64,000 nucleotides of DNA from NCBI GenBank assembly GCA_034638255.1, contig JAWPGT010000003.1, positions 930,001 through 994,000 of the forward strand, read 5' to 3'. Positions 16,423-25,442 of this stretch are shown here, in pieces (within the stretch, counting starts at the first letter, position 1; each line of letters starts with the position of its first letter). Source of the stretch: Coprinus comatus (taxonomy: Eukaryota; Basidiomycota; Agaricomycetes; Agaricales; Agaricaceae). The notes beneath the pieces are model-generated. The model was not told the DNA's origin. It ran no database searches and saw only the letters and a program-made list of their open reading frames with translations. The translations under genes and the position numbers were made by a program.

Positions 16423-16909
16423 TTAGGCCTACAAGAATGGGGAAACCCATTAGCCCTTCTTCAAATATTCTAGATAAGTGCGCGAAAGTACTCACAGACT
16501 CGGAAAATCCACCCCAAGAAGAAGCAGGTTGAACACGGTCAACAACATCAACATCACGTTCGGTGAATCCTCCCCAGGAGGAAGCTGGTTGAACACGGTC
16601 GACTACATCAACATCGCGCTCGGTGAATCCTCCCCAAGAGGAGGCGGGCTGAACACGGTCAACCACATCGACATCTCGTTCAATGAAACCACCCCAGGAG
16701 GAAGCAGGCTGAACACGGTCAACCACATCAACATCACGTTCGGTGAATCCTCCCCAGGAAGAGGCGGGCTGAACGGAGTCAACAACGTCAACCTAAATCT
16801 AATTAAGGACAATTGTCATCTCTATGAAGTGGTTTCTTACCTTTACTGGAGCTGCGAGAGCCGAGGACAAGACGGCAAGGACAATAAATGTGATAAAATT
16901 GTGCTGCAT
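16423..16909 (-). CDS. Secreted repeat-peptide precursor, candidate RiPP (dikaritin-type)
   Basis: Exon 1 (16909-16841) encodes 23 residues that look like a signal peptide: MQHNFITFIVLAVLSSALA followed by APVK. An intron (gtaaga...ttag) leads to exon 2 (16792-16496), 99 codons made of five 20-residue repeats with core VQPASSWGGF and spacer DVDVVD. A 67-nt intron leaves a final exon that is just GCC TAA. The predicted protein has 123 residues, no Cys, and almost nothing besides signal and repeats. This is the architecture of fungal kexin-processed peptide precursors and of ustiloxin/asperipin-type RiPP precursors. The neighbouring divergent gene is a UstYa oxidase, the enzyme class that cyclises such cores. 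Unlike known dikaritin precursors there is no Lys-Arg between repeats, only single Arg. A purely structural secreted repeat protein remains possible. Confidence 0.75.
16497..16796 (-). repeat. Five tandem 60-bp coding repeats
   Basis: Five 60-bp units lie head to tail with no spacer, all in frame. Peptide units differ at only a few residues (S for R before the first core, I for T in one unit, SES at the end), whereas third codon positions vary freely between units. The Ser-Ser-Trp-Gly-Gly-Phe codons, for example, use several different synonyms. Confidence 0.9.
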
Positions 16910-18074
16910 GCTGTTTAGGAGATGGAGATTTCTTGTCTCAAGTTCTGGTGTGTTTATGTATCGAGTCTCGACTGGATCGATGATTTTGACTAATTTATCA
17001 AGCAGACTTTATACTCCTTTGCTATACCCTTCAATTCCTTTGTCTTGAAGATAATTCTAGTTACTTCTACTGCCTATTTTGAGCCAATACCTGTCAGTAG
17101 AGGCATCATTTTTACAAAGTCACCTGATGATGTAATTTGTTTGCAGTCGTTCACAATTCACCTGGGAAATGTGGATCGTGACATTTTGCCGCTCAGTACC
17201 CACAGCGATATCATTCGAATAATTATAGGCTACATTCACACTCTTGCCAAACTTCAAGGGGCGCATGCCACGATTTACGGGCATCCGTCAGAAACTCAAA
17301 ACTCCTCTAAAATAGTGTTTGGAACCATTGGTTCCCCGGCAACCTGCAAAGTTTATTGACTATATTGAGAGCCATTGTACTAATATGGACCTAGGAGTCT
17401 TAGTGGCGTTGTGGTATTGTCATCTGCAATTGTAGGTCCAAGTATCCTCTTCCAAATTCCAATATCATTGGCATATTTTAGACGCTTATTACATTCGCAA
17501 CTTTATGGGTAGGTATTGAACTTCCGAACACATCGACTTTGAATTGATGAAGAAGTGCCGATGAGCAAGCGGTACCTGACCAGTGACCACTGGCAATTGG
17601 AGACCTCAGATAATAACATCTATCCATCAGACTTTAAAGAATGCGTAGTACTCGGGCCACGTCCCAGCAAGCAGCGCTGACTTGGTCCGGACTCCGGAGA
17701 CGGGCCTGGGAACGGCAAGTTATTGAATGAAGCACGCAACAACCTTATTTCAGTAAACTTATTACAATTGGAAACTTATTCAATCCCAACATCTTGAATC
17801 TACTCCATCAAGCACGGAGAAATGCCATGGTGAAAGAGTGGTAAACCTACGTAGTCCGGATTACATTACAGTGTACAGCGTGGCAACGTCAAAGCTCAAG
17901 CCATGGACATTTGAAAGCACTCTTCTTCGACTCTTTAGACAACCTGTCATTTCAGATATGGCCAAACTTTCAGGTGATCGTTAGAGTCGTCTTACTGTTT
18001 ACTAATAGAAAGGTAAAGCGCATTCACGAATATACCACCCCACCGACCGAGTGTTTTTCCTTCCTTCCCCCCAC
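16910..18074. promoter_or_regulatory. Divergent promoter region of the precursor/UstYa pair
   Basis: About 1.17 kb separates the two divergent starts. It holds a TATA box on the precursor side and a pyrimidine-rich tract just before the UstYa ATG. It also holds three copies of the palindrome TCCGGA, at 17686-17691, 17693-17698 and 17855-17860. The first two together form CCG-N5-CGG (17687-17697), the kind of inverted half-site read by Zn2Cys6 regulators, which control known dikaritin clusters. A 104-codon plus-strand ORF at 17045-17359 has no ATG start and no recognisable features. Confidence 0.4.
17007..17013 (-). promoter_or_regulatory. TATA box of the repeat-precursor gene
   Basis: TATAAAG on the minus strand lies about 98 bp upstream of the precursor ATG, a suitable distance for a short, strongly expressed fungal gene. 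It is read from sequence only. Confidence 0.45.
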
Positions 18075-19056
18075 ATGTCTAAAGCTACTCAATACAAGTC
18101 ACTGCCTAGTGATCCTGCTCAGGAACAGTTGCTCGACAGGAGCGGCTCTCAAGATGATAATTTCGTATATTCCCCATCGAAGAAGAGGGAATACTCGAGA
18201 CGCACTCTGAAGACCACCATCATCATTCAAGCTATACTGAACTTGGCCTTTGTGTGGTCATGCATTGTCTTTTGGTTGCGCAAAGACTCTGTGTATTTCC
18301 CAAAACCCCTCTATTGTAGGTTATTCAAACTATGATTACATTTGACGTTGTGCTCACTGATCGTTGTGACCAATACGAACAGCTCCTGCACAAGACTATA
18401 TTGAGTATGAAACGAAGGTCTTCACCGAAGGCTTCGCCGATCCTACAGTCTATCAAGGAGAGCCTTCTCCAGAGGTGGATCAAGCCTGGCAAGAACTTTA
18501 CGGCTGTAGGTACTACACGAACCACAAAGTACTAAAGATTAACTAACAATGTACATTATAGTTGGTGTTTCTTGGATAACAGCGGGAGAAGCCTCGCAGT
18601 TAGTCAACAAGACCGTTCCTATTCCGGGCGACGAGAGTCATTATCTGGTTCAACTTGATGTCTACCATCAACTTCATTGTCTTGTAAGTCCCTATTGAAT
18701 CCGAGAGTTTGATTCGATAGCTAATGAGGATTTATTCGGTTTAGAATATGCTAAGAAAAGCGTTGTACCCCGACTATTACGCAGACAAGGATGAACTCAA
18801 CCCAGATTCACATCTGCGAACTTTGCATTATGGTCATTGCATCGATAGTATCAGACAGTCCCTCATGTGCTCTGCTGATATCTCCCCTATTGTATGGCAG
18901 TGGATTGATCATTGGCAGCAAATTCGGATCGTCGGGAATATTGCGCACAAGTGTAGGAGCTATGATAAGATCAAGGAATGGGCTTTAAGCCGTGAAGTGA
19001 AGGAGGTTCCCCTGTTTGCCGTACATATGCACCCCGGAGAGCATTCTGAGCACTGA
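18075..19056 (+). CDS. UstYa-family (DUF3328) oxidase
   Basis: UstYa proteins are membrane-anchored, probably copper-dependent oxidases that make oxidative crosslinks in fungal RiPPs such as ustiloxins and cyclochlorotine. Here a basic cytosolic N-terminus is followed by one membrane helix (TTIIIQAILNLAFVWSCIVFW). The ectodomain then has SPAQDYIEYETKVF, YQGEPSPEVDQAWQELY and both family signatures: the HxxHC motif in YHQLHCL and the second motif HYGHCIDSIRQSLMC. I infer four exons with introns at about 18315-18380, 18505-18560 and 18684-18743. The total is about 265 residues, normal for the family. Both His/Cys signatures are intact, so it is likely active. The precursor 1.2 kb away on the other strand is the obvious substrate candidate. 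Confidence 0.92.
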
Positions 19057-22963: not shown

Positions 22964-24198
22964 CTAGACATTACATACATTCCCACTAACGTTAGAAGAC
23001 CAGTCAATGAACATTTCAATCGACCTAATTTGGGTGATAGAATCCGCTGTGGGAGGACCGTTAGACCAACAAGGATCTCCATTACTCCAAACATTCCATA
23101 ACCATGATCCAGCTTGTGTTGGGACCTATAGTGGCAAGTCAAATATTCAGCCTTTTACACGAATTCAAGTTGACGAAAAAAACACCGTACATTTGATGTG
23201 AGTTGGGCCTTTTGTTGTCCGTCAATGTAAAAAGTAGTAGCAGCGGAGGACCACTGAACCAGAAATTCTCAAGTTAAATCCGCACGAAGAGGGGGAAATG
23301 GCATCAAGCAAAAGCTTACATCAATTCTGTATTCTAACCGGATAATTTAGCATCGACATAAAATAATATTAGTAGGAGAGATGTTTCCTTACCATGGAAG
23401 CTGGTTCTAGGGTTGAAGGTGAACGGAACTGTTTGGTGAGTACTAGACCCTCCTGGAACAAGTGCCTATATTGCGAAACATTCCATTTATTAGTATACTT
23501 CCCTTTTTCCCGTCCGAGAGTGAATACTTGCCTGGTTTGTAGCCCAAATACCAGCTGGAACACATTGGCTTGAGGTATCAATTGTACTGGTGAGAATTTC
23601 CCAATCAATCTCCTGGTTATCGTTCACTAAATGCGCCATGGGTTAGTGAGTTTTCGGAACAATTGAAGGACTTGACATACAGTAGAAGAAGTTTCCTTCG
23701 ACAACTCCTGGGGTACTACTTGACTTCTGCACAGTTCTCACAGAGGTACTTGAACTGATCCCACGTAAATAGCTCGGCGCCTTGAATTGAACCACTTCCA
23801 GTATACGCCGAAACTTTCAGATTTAATGCGCCATTTGCTAATGCCACATTACTTGGGCTGAAGTTGCGTGGGACTGGTCCAGATGAAATTGGGTAATTGC
23901 TGACGCCTATGCTGTGGGAGCTGATGAAAGTGAGATAGAACCCTCGGTTTAGCTTCAAAATAAAGATGGTACAAAGTATGTATACTCACTTGAGAAAGGC
24001 AACAGCATCTCCACCAGCTGTGACACCAGAAAAGTCGACAAAAATTCTACGTCTGAATCCTCCTGTGATACCATTAACAACATAGGTATCACAAGTAGCC
24101 CTGGCTTCATGTGTTGTGATATTACTAGGGGCCTGAAGGGAGAGTTGTGATAGTGCCAAAGTGATCAAAGCGAAAAGACCTGTTGAGAATTTTGCCAT
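22964..24198 (-). CDS. Secreted GH16-like (concanavalin A-like) glucanase-fold protein
   Basis: A signal peptide (MAKFSTGLFALITLALSQLSLQ) leads into a single lectin/glucanase-like domain. Key parts are VALANGALNLKV, GVVEGNFFYLNDN, the catalytic-type signature QEIDWEILTS (pattern E-x-D-x-E), FHEYRIDWSS, ATTFYIDGQQ and WSNGDPCWSNGPP. GH16 enzymes hydrolyse or transfer beta-1,3/1,4 glucans, so a role in the cell wall or secretome is likely. There are seven or so exons, one intron starting with GC (about 23464-23530), and TAG at 22964. Odd point: near 23756 the frame shifts between AELFTWDQ and SSTSVRTVQK. A 52-nt intron could bridge it, but that would remove residues that look homologous to the family. 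A second, decayed copy lies about 2 kb upstream. Confidence 0.82.
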
Positions 24199-25395
24199 TT
24201 TGGAACTTGCTGGTGATAGAGGCCCAAAGTGACTACTGCTTTATATAGCGGATAAAGCCAAGAATAAGCAGATCTATGTTCCACCTGGGCCTCAAGAACA
24301 CAGTTGTTTCCACGTGGTCGTTCTAGCCCATAGGCGCCGGCCGCGATACGGGGCGGGTACGTCGGAACTTTGGCGATTGAATGACTTGTTTCAAGTTCCG
24401 GGCATTAGCAATTCACAAAGTGTTCTGAACATCTTACTGTGATGGTAGATGGAGGTAGGTAGATGGAGGTAGACGGGGAAATTTGGGATTGAAACTCTTG
24501 GAAAACTTGAACAATTTGTTTTACATTCAATTGTGGCATTTAAGATCATGGTCCTTCGGCGAAGAGGCTAGGAAATCAAATTTTCTAGCTGGCACGAGCA
24601 TGGTCAAGTGACGTTGGGGAAGTCGGTTGCTAGAGAGAAAAGAAGGTAAGCATAAATAGTTTGAATAGTCAGAGGGTCAGAAACGAATTTCAAAGTTGAG
24701 TTGTACTTTGTGAAACGAATCGCTTATTGCCGCAAATCCTGATTGCCGGTTTCAGTCCATACTTTCAAACTTCGCAATGTCCATTGGTCAAAAATTCAAA
24801 CACAAAGTTCAACTATGCCTCGCATCTAGGTCGTTAGCATCGAGACCTAGCCAGAATCAAAAGTTGCGTGATACATAGATTCGCTAATGATTTTTCTCGA
24901 TGAACTGATTGTTCAGACTTGCACTGGTAACTCGCAAATGTTCAGGGACCTTCACGGTAAAGTGTGAATCAGGAGACTTAATACTCGAACCTCTGACGGT
25001 TGACCGAGCCTGGCTACGAACTACATGGAGAAGTTCTGAACTACCACCGGCCAGGCTGTGATTATAGTCTCGAAGCATCGAATATCCACACACAGCTACA
25101 CGTAAACCACAGTGAACTGCCCTTGCACGAGAGAAAGTTAAGACCCTTTCCCACCACTGGTGACAATTTGCACAGGTTTGGACATATTGTACACTGACTA
25201 AGAGGACTCGACCCACTGGTAAGACCCATAAGGACGAACAATTATCACCCGTGAAATAGAGAAAACGATAGCTTCACGGGCATAAACTAAAACCTAAGCC
25301 CGCAAGCATAAACATGATAAAAATAAAAGCGCCATTCAATTCCCCGCGTGGTTCCTACTACTACACAGATTTAGTTGATGCATGGACCTTTGAGC

Positions 25396-25442
<47 letters not shown>

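Follow-up and report, generated by a model that had tools for sequence, protein, structure and literature searches.

A putative five-core RiPP precursor with an invariant tryptophan, encoded beside a UstYa gene in a probable basidiomycete

Among the closest described systems to the locus reported here are the dikaritins, and the members described in PMC12048977 and PMC9233826, the latter of which also places victorin among them, come from ascomycetes. According to Huang et al. (2025; PMC12435403), the UstYa (DUF3328) proteins are binuclear copper enzymes, bound to membranes and bearing the signature HxxHC(x)nHxxHC, and the same paper places the helical domain of one of them, CctR, in the lumen of an organelle; a secreted precursor would meet such a domain there. 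UstYa genes are also known in basidiomycetes, with 16 in Pleurotus (PMC8893723), and a UstYa gene accompanying a repeat precursor is not new in kind in this group, because DUF3328 genes lie near 103 of 1680 basidiomycete KEPs (PMC7329392). The preliminary description of the present locus had held such pathways to be barely described in basidiomycetes, a statement that has to be qualified by this count; in the literature searched, no basidiomycete UstYa has been paired with its substrate by experiment.

In the definition used in Umemura's survey, a KEP has a signal peptide and at least three repeats of at least 8 aa lying between KR, KK, RK, or RR (PMC7329392), and these pairs are required both by that survey and by the first of the two methods of Vogt et al. 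(PMC7329392, PMC9769878). The second of Vogt's methods combines a repeat finder with inspection by eye, and dibasic pairs need not be present (PMC9769878). Here we describe a gene in a 64,000-nucleotide stretch of DNA (the window) that, judging from its sequence and that of its neighbor, probably specifies a RiPP precursor of the UstYa (dikaritin-like) type, secreted and with several cores, which would be oxidized by UstYa and released by cuts at Arg.

The precursor gene and its repeat units

In our gene model, the precursor gene lies on the reverse strand at 16423-16909, just where the preliminary description had put it, and has three exons and a spliced product of 123 aa; both introns were placed by splice signals alone. 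Exon 1 (16841..16909) carries the start codon and the predicted signal peptide MQHNFITFIVLAVLSSALA, followed by APVK. The signal-peptide-like start that it encodes, MQHNFITFIVLAVLSSALAAPVK, scores 3.21 with a small-x-small site on a hydrophobicity heuristic (not SignalP). The predicted intron 1 (16793..16840; 48 nt, GTAAGA...TTTAG) leads to exon 2 (16496..16792), which holds the five core units, and the predicted intron 2 (16429..16495; 67 nt, GTGAGT...TTGTAG) leads to exon 3 (16423..16428), which consists of two codons, GCC TAA (Ala-stop).

The core VQPASSWGGF is identical in all five units (5/5), so that the earlier claim of an invariant Trp-containing core stands; the copies, all on the reverse strand, are at 16745..16774 (core 1), 16685..16714 (core 2), 16625..16654 (core 3), 16565..16594 (core 4), and 16505..16534 (core 5). 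The linker (T/I)ERDVDVVDR occupies 4/4 internal core junctions (IER follows core 2), and the outer flanks of the array differ from it: core 1 is preceded by VDVVDS and has no upstream Arg, and core 5 is followed by SESA and then the stop and has no downstream Arg. Tandem Repeats Finder reports a 60-nt unit in 4.8 copies with a score of 378, the next-best of the seven rows for the window scoring 82. This tandem unit and the gene model together confirm the earlier account of a 123-residue protein built of five near-identical 20-residue units. The array appears to be unique: searched at the protein level, the 35.7-Mb genome yielded this precursor gene alone, and the degenerate pattern W-G-G-F-x-(D/E)-R occurs in it just four times, once in each of the first four units, whereas the control with the pattern reversed gave 0 matches.

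The only aromatic residues in the core are Trp and Phe, the latter terminal, and the 123-aa precursor contains no Tyr and no Cys. It also contains no KR, KK, RK, or RR; Arg stands singly at 8 places and is followed by VQ or DV. The precursor thus has the repeats of Umemura's KEP definition without the dibasic sites, and it has none of the XA/XP (STE13) dipeptides of an alpha-pheromone-like KEP. Cycloamanides have an MSDIN leader and borosins have a fused N-methyltransferase domain; the window precursor begins with MQHNF, and no Pfam family matches it above the cut-off.

Comparison of the units with one another indicates how the array has been maintained. When all ten core pairs are added up, the cores differ at 46 of 76.7 synonymous sites (pS = 0.60) and at 0 of 223.3 nonsynonymous sites (pN = 0), so that strong selection acts on the protein sequence of the precursor. 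The four linkers (six pairs) have 22 synonymous differences over 44 sites and 3 nonsynonymous differences over 136, and in the four full units, 13 of the 14 variable columns are third codon positions (hypergeometric P = 1.8e-7). From these patterns, the units look like old copies held identical in protein, rather than fresh duplications. It is accordingly very improbable that the gene is decaying or unexpressed, or that it is just a gene-like open frame, given the heavy synonymous change around an unchanged core protein, splice sites that fall in frame, and an intact UstYa gene next door.

The missing dibasic sites would suit a protein that is not cleaved at all and acts as an intact structural or surface repeat protein, and a related possibility is that its peptides act on the hyphal wall, as with Rep1 of Ustilago, a repeat precursor that controls hyphal wall properties once it has been cleaved into peptides (PMC6339444). 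We consider a role of this kind quite unlikely for a product of just 123 aa that has no Cys, has a UstYa neighbor, and varies less in its core than in its linker (pN of 0 versus 0.022, although this gap amounts to one residue).

The UstYa neighbor and its relatives in the genome

In a model built from splice signals and homology, an intact four-exon UstYa gene (18075-19056, forward strand; 265 aa) is divergent from the precursor gene, with 1165 bp between the two start codons. Its product matches PF11807 (UstYa / DUF3328) with E = 5.8e-57 (193.5 bits versus a cut-off of 25) over positions 5-219 of 220, and it has both marks of the family, an N-terminal hydrophobic segment and HxxHC(x)nHxxHC. 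Exon 1 (18075..18315) encodes the N terminus, cytosolic by family, and the hydrophobic segment (residues 48-66); exon 2 (18383..18505) encodes SPAQDYIEYETK...; exon 3 (18562..18683) carries the first copper-ligand motif, HQLHC (18666-18680, residues 157-161); and exon 4 (18745..19056) carries the second, HYGHC (18826-18840, residues 190-194), and the stop codon (19054-19056). No solved structure matched the protein by sequence at E values up to 1, and no relatives of exon 4 were found in viral contigs. The divergent intergenic region (16910..18074) may serve as a shared promoter; a search for a shared promoter motif in it returned just weak two-copy repeats. Taking seven UstYa genes, a minimum count, for the 35.7 Mb, the naive chance that a UstYa start lies this near a given start is ~4.6e-4.

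The genome has 11 matches to UstYa, which represent at least seven genes. When C-terminal parts are compared, two UstYa proteins encoded on contig C1 are the nearest to the window UstYa (47-48% identity), and the other four of the genome are 23-32% identical to it. The window UstYa and the two C1 proteins also group together with support of 98/97, apart from the other four, in a tree of 7 rows and 86 columns for which the program warned of long branches. At the C1 locus (C1:2567980-2576425), the two UstYa genes are accompanied by a serine carboxypeptidase gene, whose exons were joined by eye (Peptidase_S10, 1e-29), and by two small secreted precursors that are paralogous to each other and have one core each. 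The precursor at 2576193 (two exons) includes ...SRQRK-PASAGWPF-RSYDD, and the one at 2574840 (two exons, joined by eye), which was found through a signal region matching that of the former (E = 3.8e-4), includes ...SRR-PLIPQISHGWPF-RSYDDRDGNVA. In each, a single core follows a basic pair and has Trp near its end and Phe last (GWPF), with Arg after it. The window core, VQPASSWGGF-(T/I)ER, suggestively appears to share this general plan. A motif common to the window and C1 cores, written post hoc after both sets had been seen, matched 8 times in 148 kb, with 5 of the matches in the precursors and 3 outside them, whereas 20 shuffles averaged 2.2 matches; taken alone, this motif is weak. A DUF6535 gene also lies between the two C1 precursors, on the reverse strand (1.8e-10; segment positions L012:5416-5847).

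The proposal of a RiPP precursor in the preliminary description is thus supported, and it is firmer than the shape of the protein alone would make it, because a UstYa gene adjoins the precursor gene and the C1 relatives of that UstYa also adjoin secreted precursors. The same facts weigh against the idea of a linear, KEP-type precursor from which Kex2 and Kex1 would free unmodified or minimally modified signaling or biotic peptides, with the UstYa being unrelated or having another substrate. Most basidiomycete KEPs do lie away from DUF3328 genes, as the proportion cited above implies (PMC7329392), and the KEP peptides of Coprinopsis, Lentinula, and Pleurotus are linear and minimally modified, some with a C-terminal Trp (PMC9769878). 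This idea nevertheless seems unlikely here, since there is a divergent UstYa gene at 1165 bp, since small secreted precursors also lie beside its nearest relatives in the genome, and since a precursor without a dibasic site falls outside Umemura's KEP definition.

The four further UstYa genes form a divergent group (C31:50639-52213, C9:576194, and C9:618110). In two of them, the first metal motif is altered, to HQISC in C31a and HQLRC in C9b, and one ligand position is therefore changed. Around the six other UstYa genes, 84 kb were scanned for tandem repeats and for protein repeats, and no secreted repeat like that of the window came to light. Two kinds of candidate precursor were considered and rejected: a two-copy motif at C31:57514, which is a short DNA repeat with no recognizable gene around it, and signal-peptide-like starts at C31:49076 and C9:574-575k, taken from a heuristic, thresholded list covering 5 kb around the UstYa genes, in which no core is visible. 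At C31:40358-43786, ~7 kb from the nearest UstYa match, there is a 1143-aa open frame with a 23-residue repeat.

Surroundings of the gene pair and proposed maturation

Thirty open frames at 3.9-44 kb of the window, covering part of the exons of its genes, were scanned individually. Pfam matches were obtained for Ctf4/Mcl1/WDHD1, PRMT, a beta-CASP/metallo-beta-lactamase protein, and an NAD-binding 6-phosphogluconate-dehydrogenase-like domain, and DUF6914 and leucine-rich repeats matched below the cut-off; the remaining frames had no Pfam match at E 0.01. The cluster seems minimal, because no further tailoring gene was recognized in these 30 frames and none of the 11 tyrosinase matches (0/11) is on the precursor's contig. 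The precursor and UstYa genes look like a two-gene cluster, for which other loci would supply the trimming enzymes. Peptidase_S8 (9 matches) and the motif HGTRCAGQ...GTSAAAP, which we take to indicate a kexin, led to a kexin-like gene in the genome; the Kex2 P domain had no match in the genome, perhaps as introns split the domain. Elsewhere in the window, gene frames at 23719-24240 (reverse strand) have a signal-peptide-like start, MAKFSTGLFALITLALSQ, at 24198, and two frames of this gene, scanned singly, gave no Pfam family; a run of 41 T is found at 25400-25440. The host is probably a basidiomycete, as is indicated indirectly by DUF6534, a family typical of Agaricomycetes that has 32 matches in the genome; its absence from the control genomes (0/14) carries little weight, since those named are bacteria and archaea.

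As a UstYa-type precursor, the protein would be taken into the secretory pathway by its signal peptide. The membrane-anchored UstYa encoded next door, by family a binuclear-copper oxidase, would then oxidize each core, with the invariant Trp and/or the core-terminal Phe as the likeliest sites, to give a side-chain cross-link or another C-H oxidation. The terminal Phe and the Trp are equally good candidates, because in victorin the Phe at the core end is cyclized to a Leu (PMC9233826). A Kex2-type protease, or another with specificity for Arg, would cut the linkers on the C-terminal side of single Arg residues (in VVDR and T/IER); expression of Coprinopsis precursors in Pichia gave peptides that had apparently been cleaved at such single-Arg positions (Vogt et al. 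2022, PMC9769878). Cuts at Arg would yield two copies of VQPASSWGGFTER, one of VQPASSWGGFIER, four of DVDVVDR, VQPASSWGGFSESA, and an N-terminal piece that includes core 1. Removal of the Arg by a Kex1-type carboxypeptidase and trimming of C-terminal residues by carboxypeptidase would leave about five copies of a peptide based on VQPASSWGGF(TE). The calculated [M+H]+ of VQPASSWGGF is 1035.489 in linear form versus 1033.474 after loss of 2H; the corresponding masses are 1265.580 versus 1263.564 for VQPASSWGGFTE and 1421.681 versus 1419.665 for VQPASSWGGFTER. Our guess at its function is that of a bioactive peptide, probably secreted and directed towards other organisms or acting in development.

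If this reading is true, the copper-dependent UstYa family gains a substrate that contains Trp and lacks Tyr, and a probable basidiomycete has a compact RiPP unit of two genes; the combination of two genes and five identical cores makes for an easy test system. A broader proposal, which we offer only tentatively and regard as somewhat doubtful, is that there is a basidiomycete branch of UstYa RiPPs in which the enzyme would work on Trp (with terminal Phe) in place of Tyr and the five-core precursor would be processed at single acidic-Arg sites in place of dibasic ones. Its first known members would be the window gene and the two single-core C1 genes, and multi-core members like the window gene would be invisible to dibasic surveys.

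Comparison with known systems

In the open-licence PubMed Central literature searched, the letters of the cores had no match, and no UstYa RiPP with a Trp core was described. Surveys that require dibasic pairs would miss the window precursor, because it contains none, and if our reading is true it points to a blind spot of dibasic-based surveys of repeat precursors. The C1 precursors differ from it in having basic pairs, but they have a single core each.

Several described systems share some of these features. CctR, the copper hydroxylase of cyclochlorotine, belongs to the same DUF3328 family and has the membrane helix and HxxHC(x)nHxxHC, but its host is an ascomycete and its substrate a non-ribosomal peptide, unlike in the UstYa role proposed here (PMC12435403). 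The Coprinopsis KEP 490115, whose products include QYKAPSW and QMRPPSW with their C-terminal Trp, resembles the window precursor in its basidiomycete repeats and in Pro/Ser before Trp, and peptides apparently cut after single Arg in Pichia match the cleavage proposed here, whereas it differs in having RR and STE13 dipeptides and linear products (PMC9769878); the main text of that paper contains 0 occurrences of UstY or DUF3328. The nearest lead is Umemura's KEP type P-3 (#165), reported in 2020 from Fonsecaea, Cladophialophora, Galerina, Psilocybe, and Coprinellus (PMC7329392). Like the present case, it has basidiomycete members, DUF3328 nearby in 4/7, and repeats in which W is accompanied by P, but it is defined by dibasic sites, and the two are likened by description only (PMC7329392).

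The preliminary description had likened the protein to the precursors of ustiloxin, asperipin, and epichloecyclin, and this likeness holds for the signal peptide, the repeats, and the UstYa gene but not for the dibasic Kex2 site or the Tyr. Characterized dikaritins have dibasic Kex2 sites and Tyr in the core (Phe in victorin), whereas the window precursor comes from a probable basidiomycete and has single Arg sites, Trp and Phe without Tyr, and no further tailoring gene recognized among the frames scanned. What it has in common with ustiloxin, phomopsin, asperipin-2a, and victorin is the signal peptide, the tandem near-identical cores, and a UstYa/DUF3328 gene beside the precursor gene, and with victorin, in which the Phe at the core end is cross-linked (PMC9233826), it further shares a core that ends in Phe.
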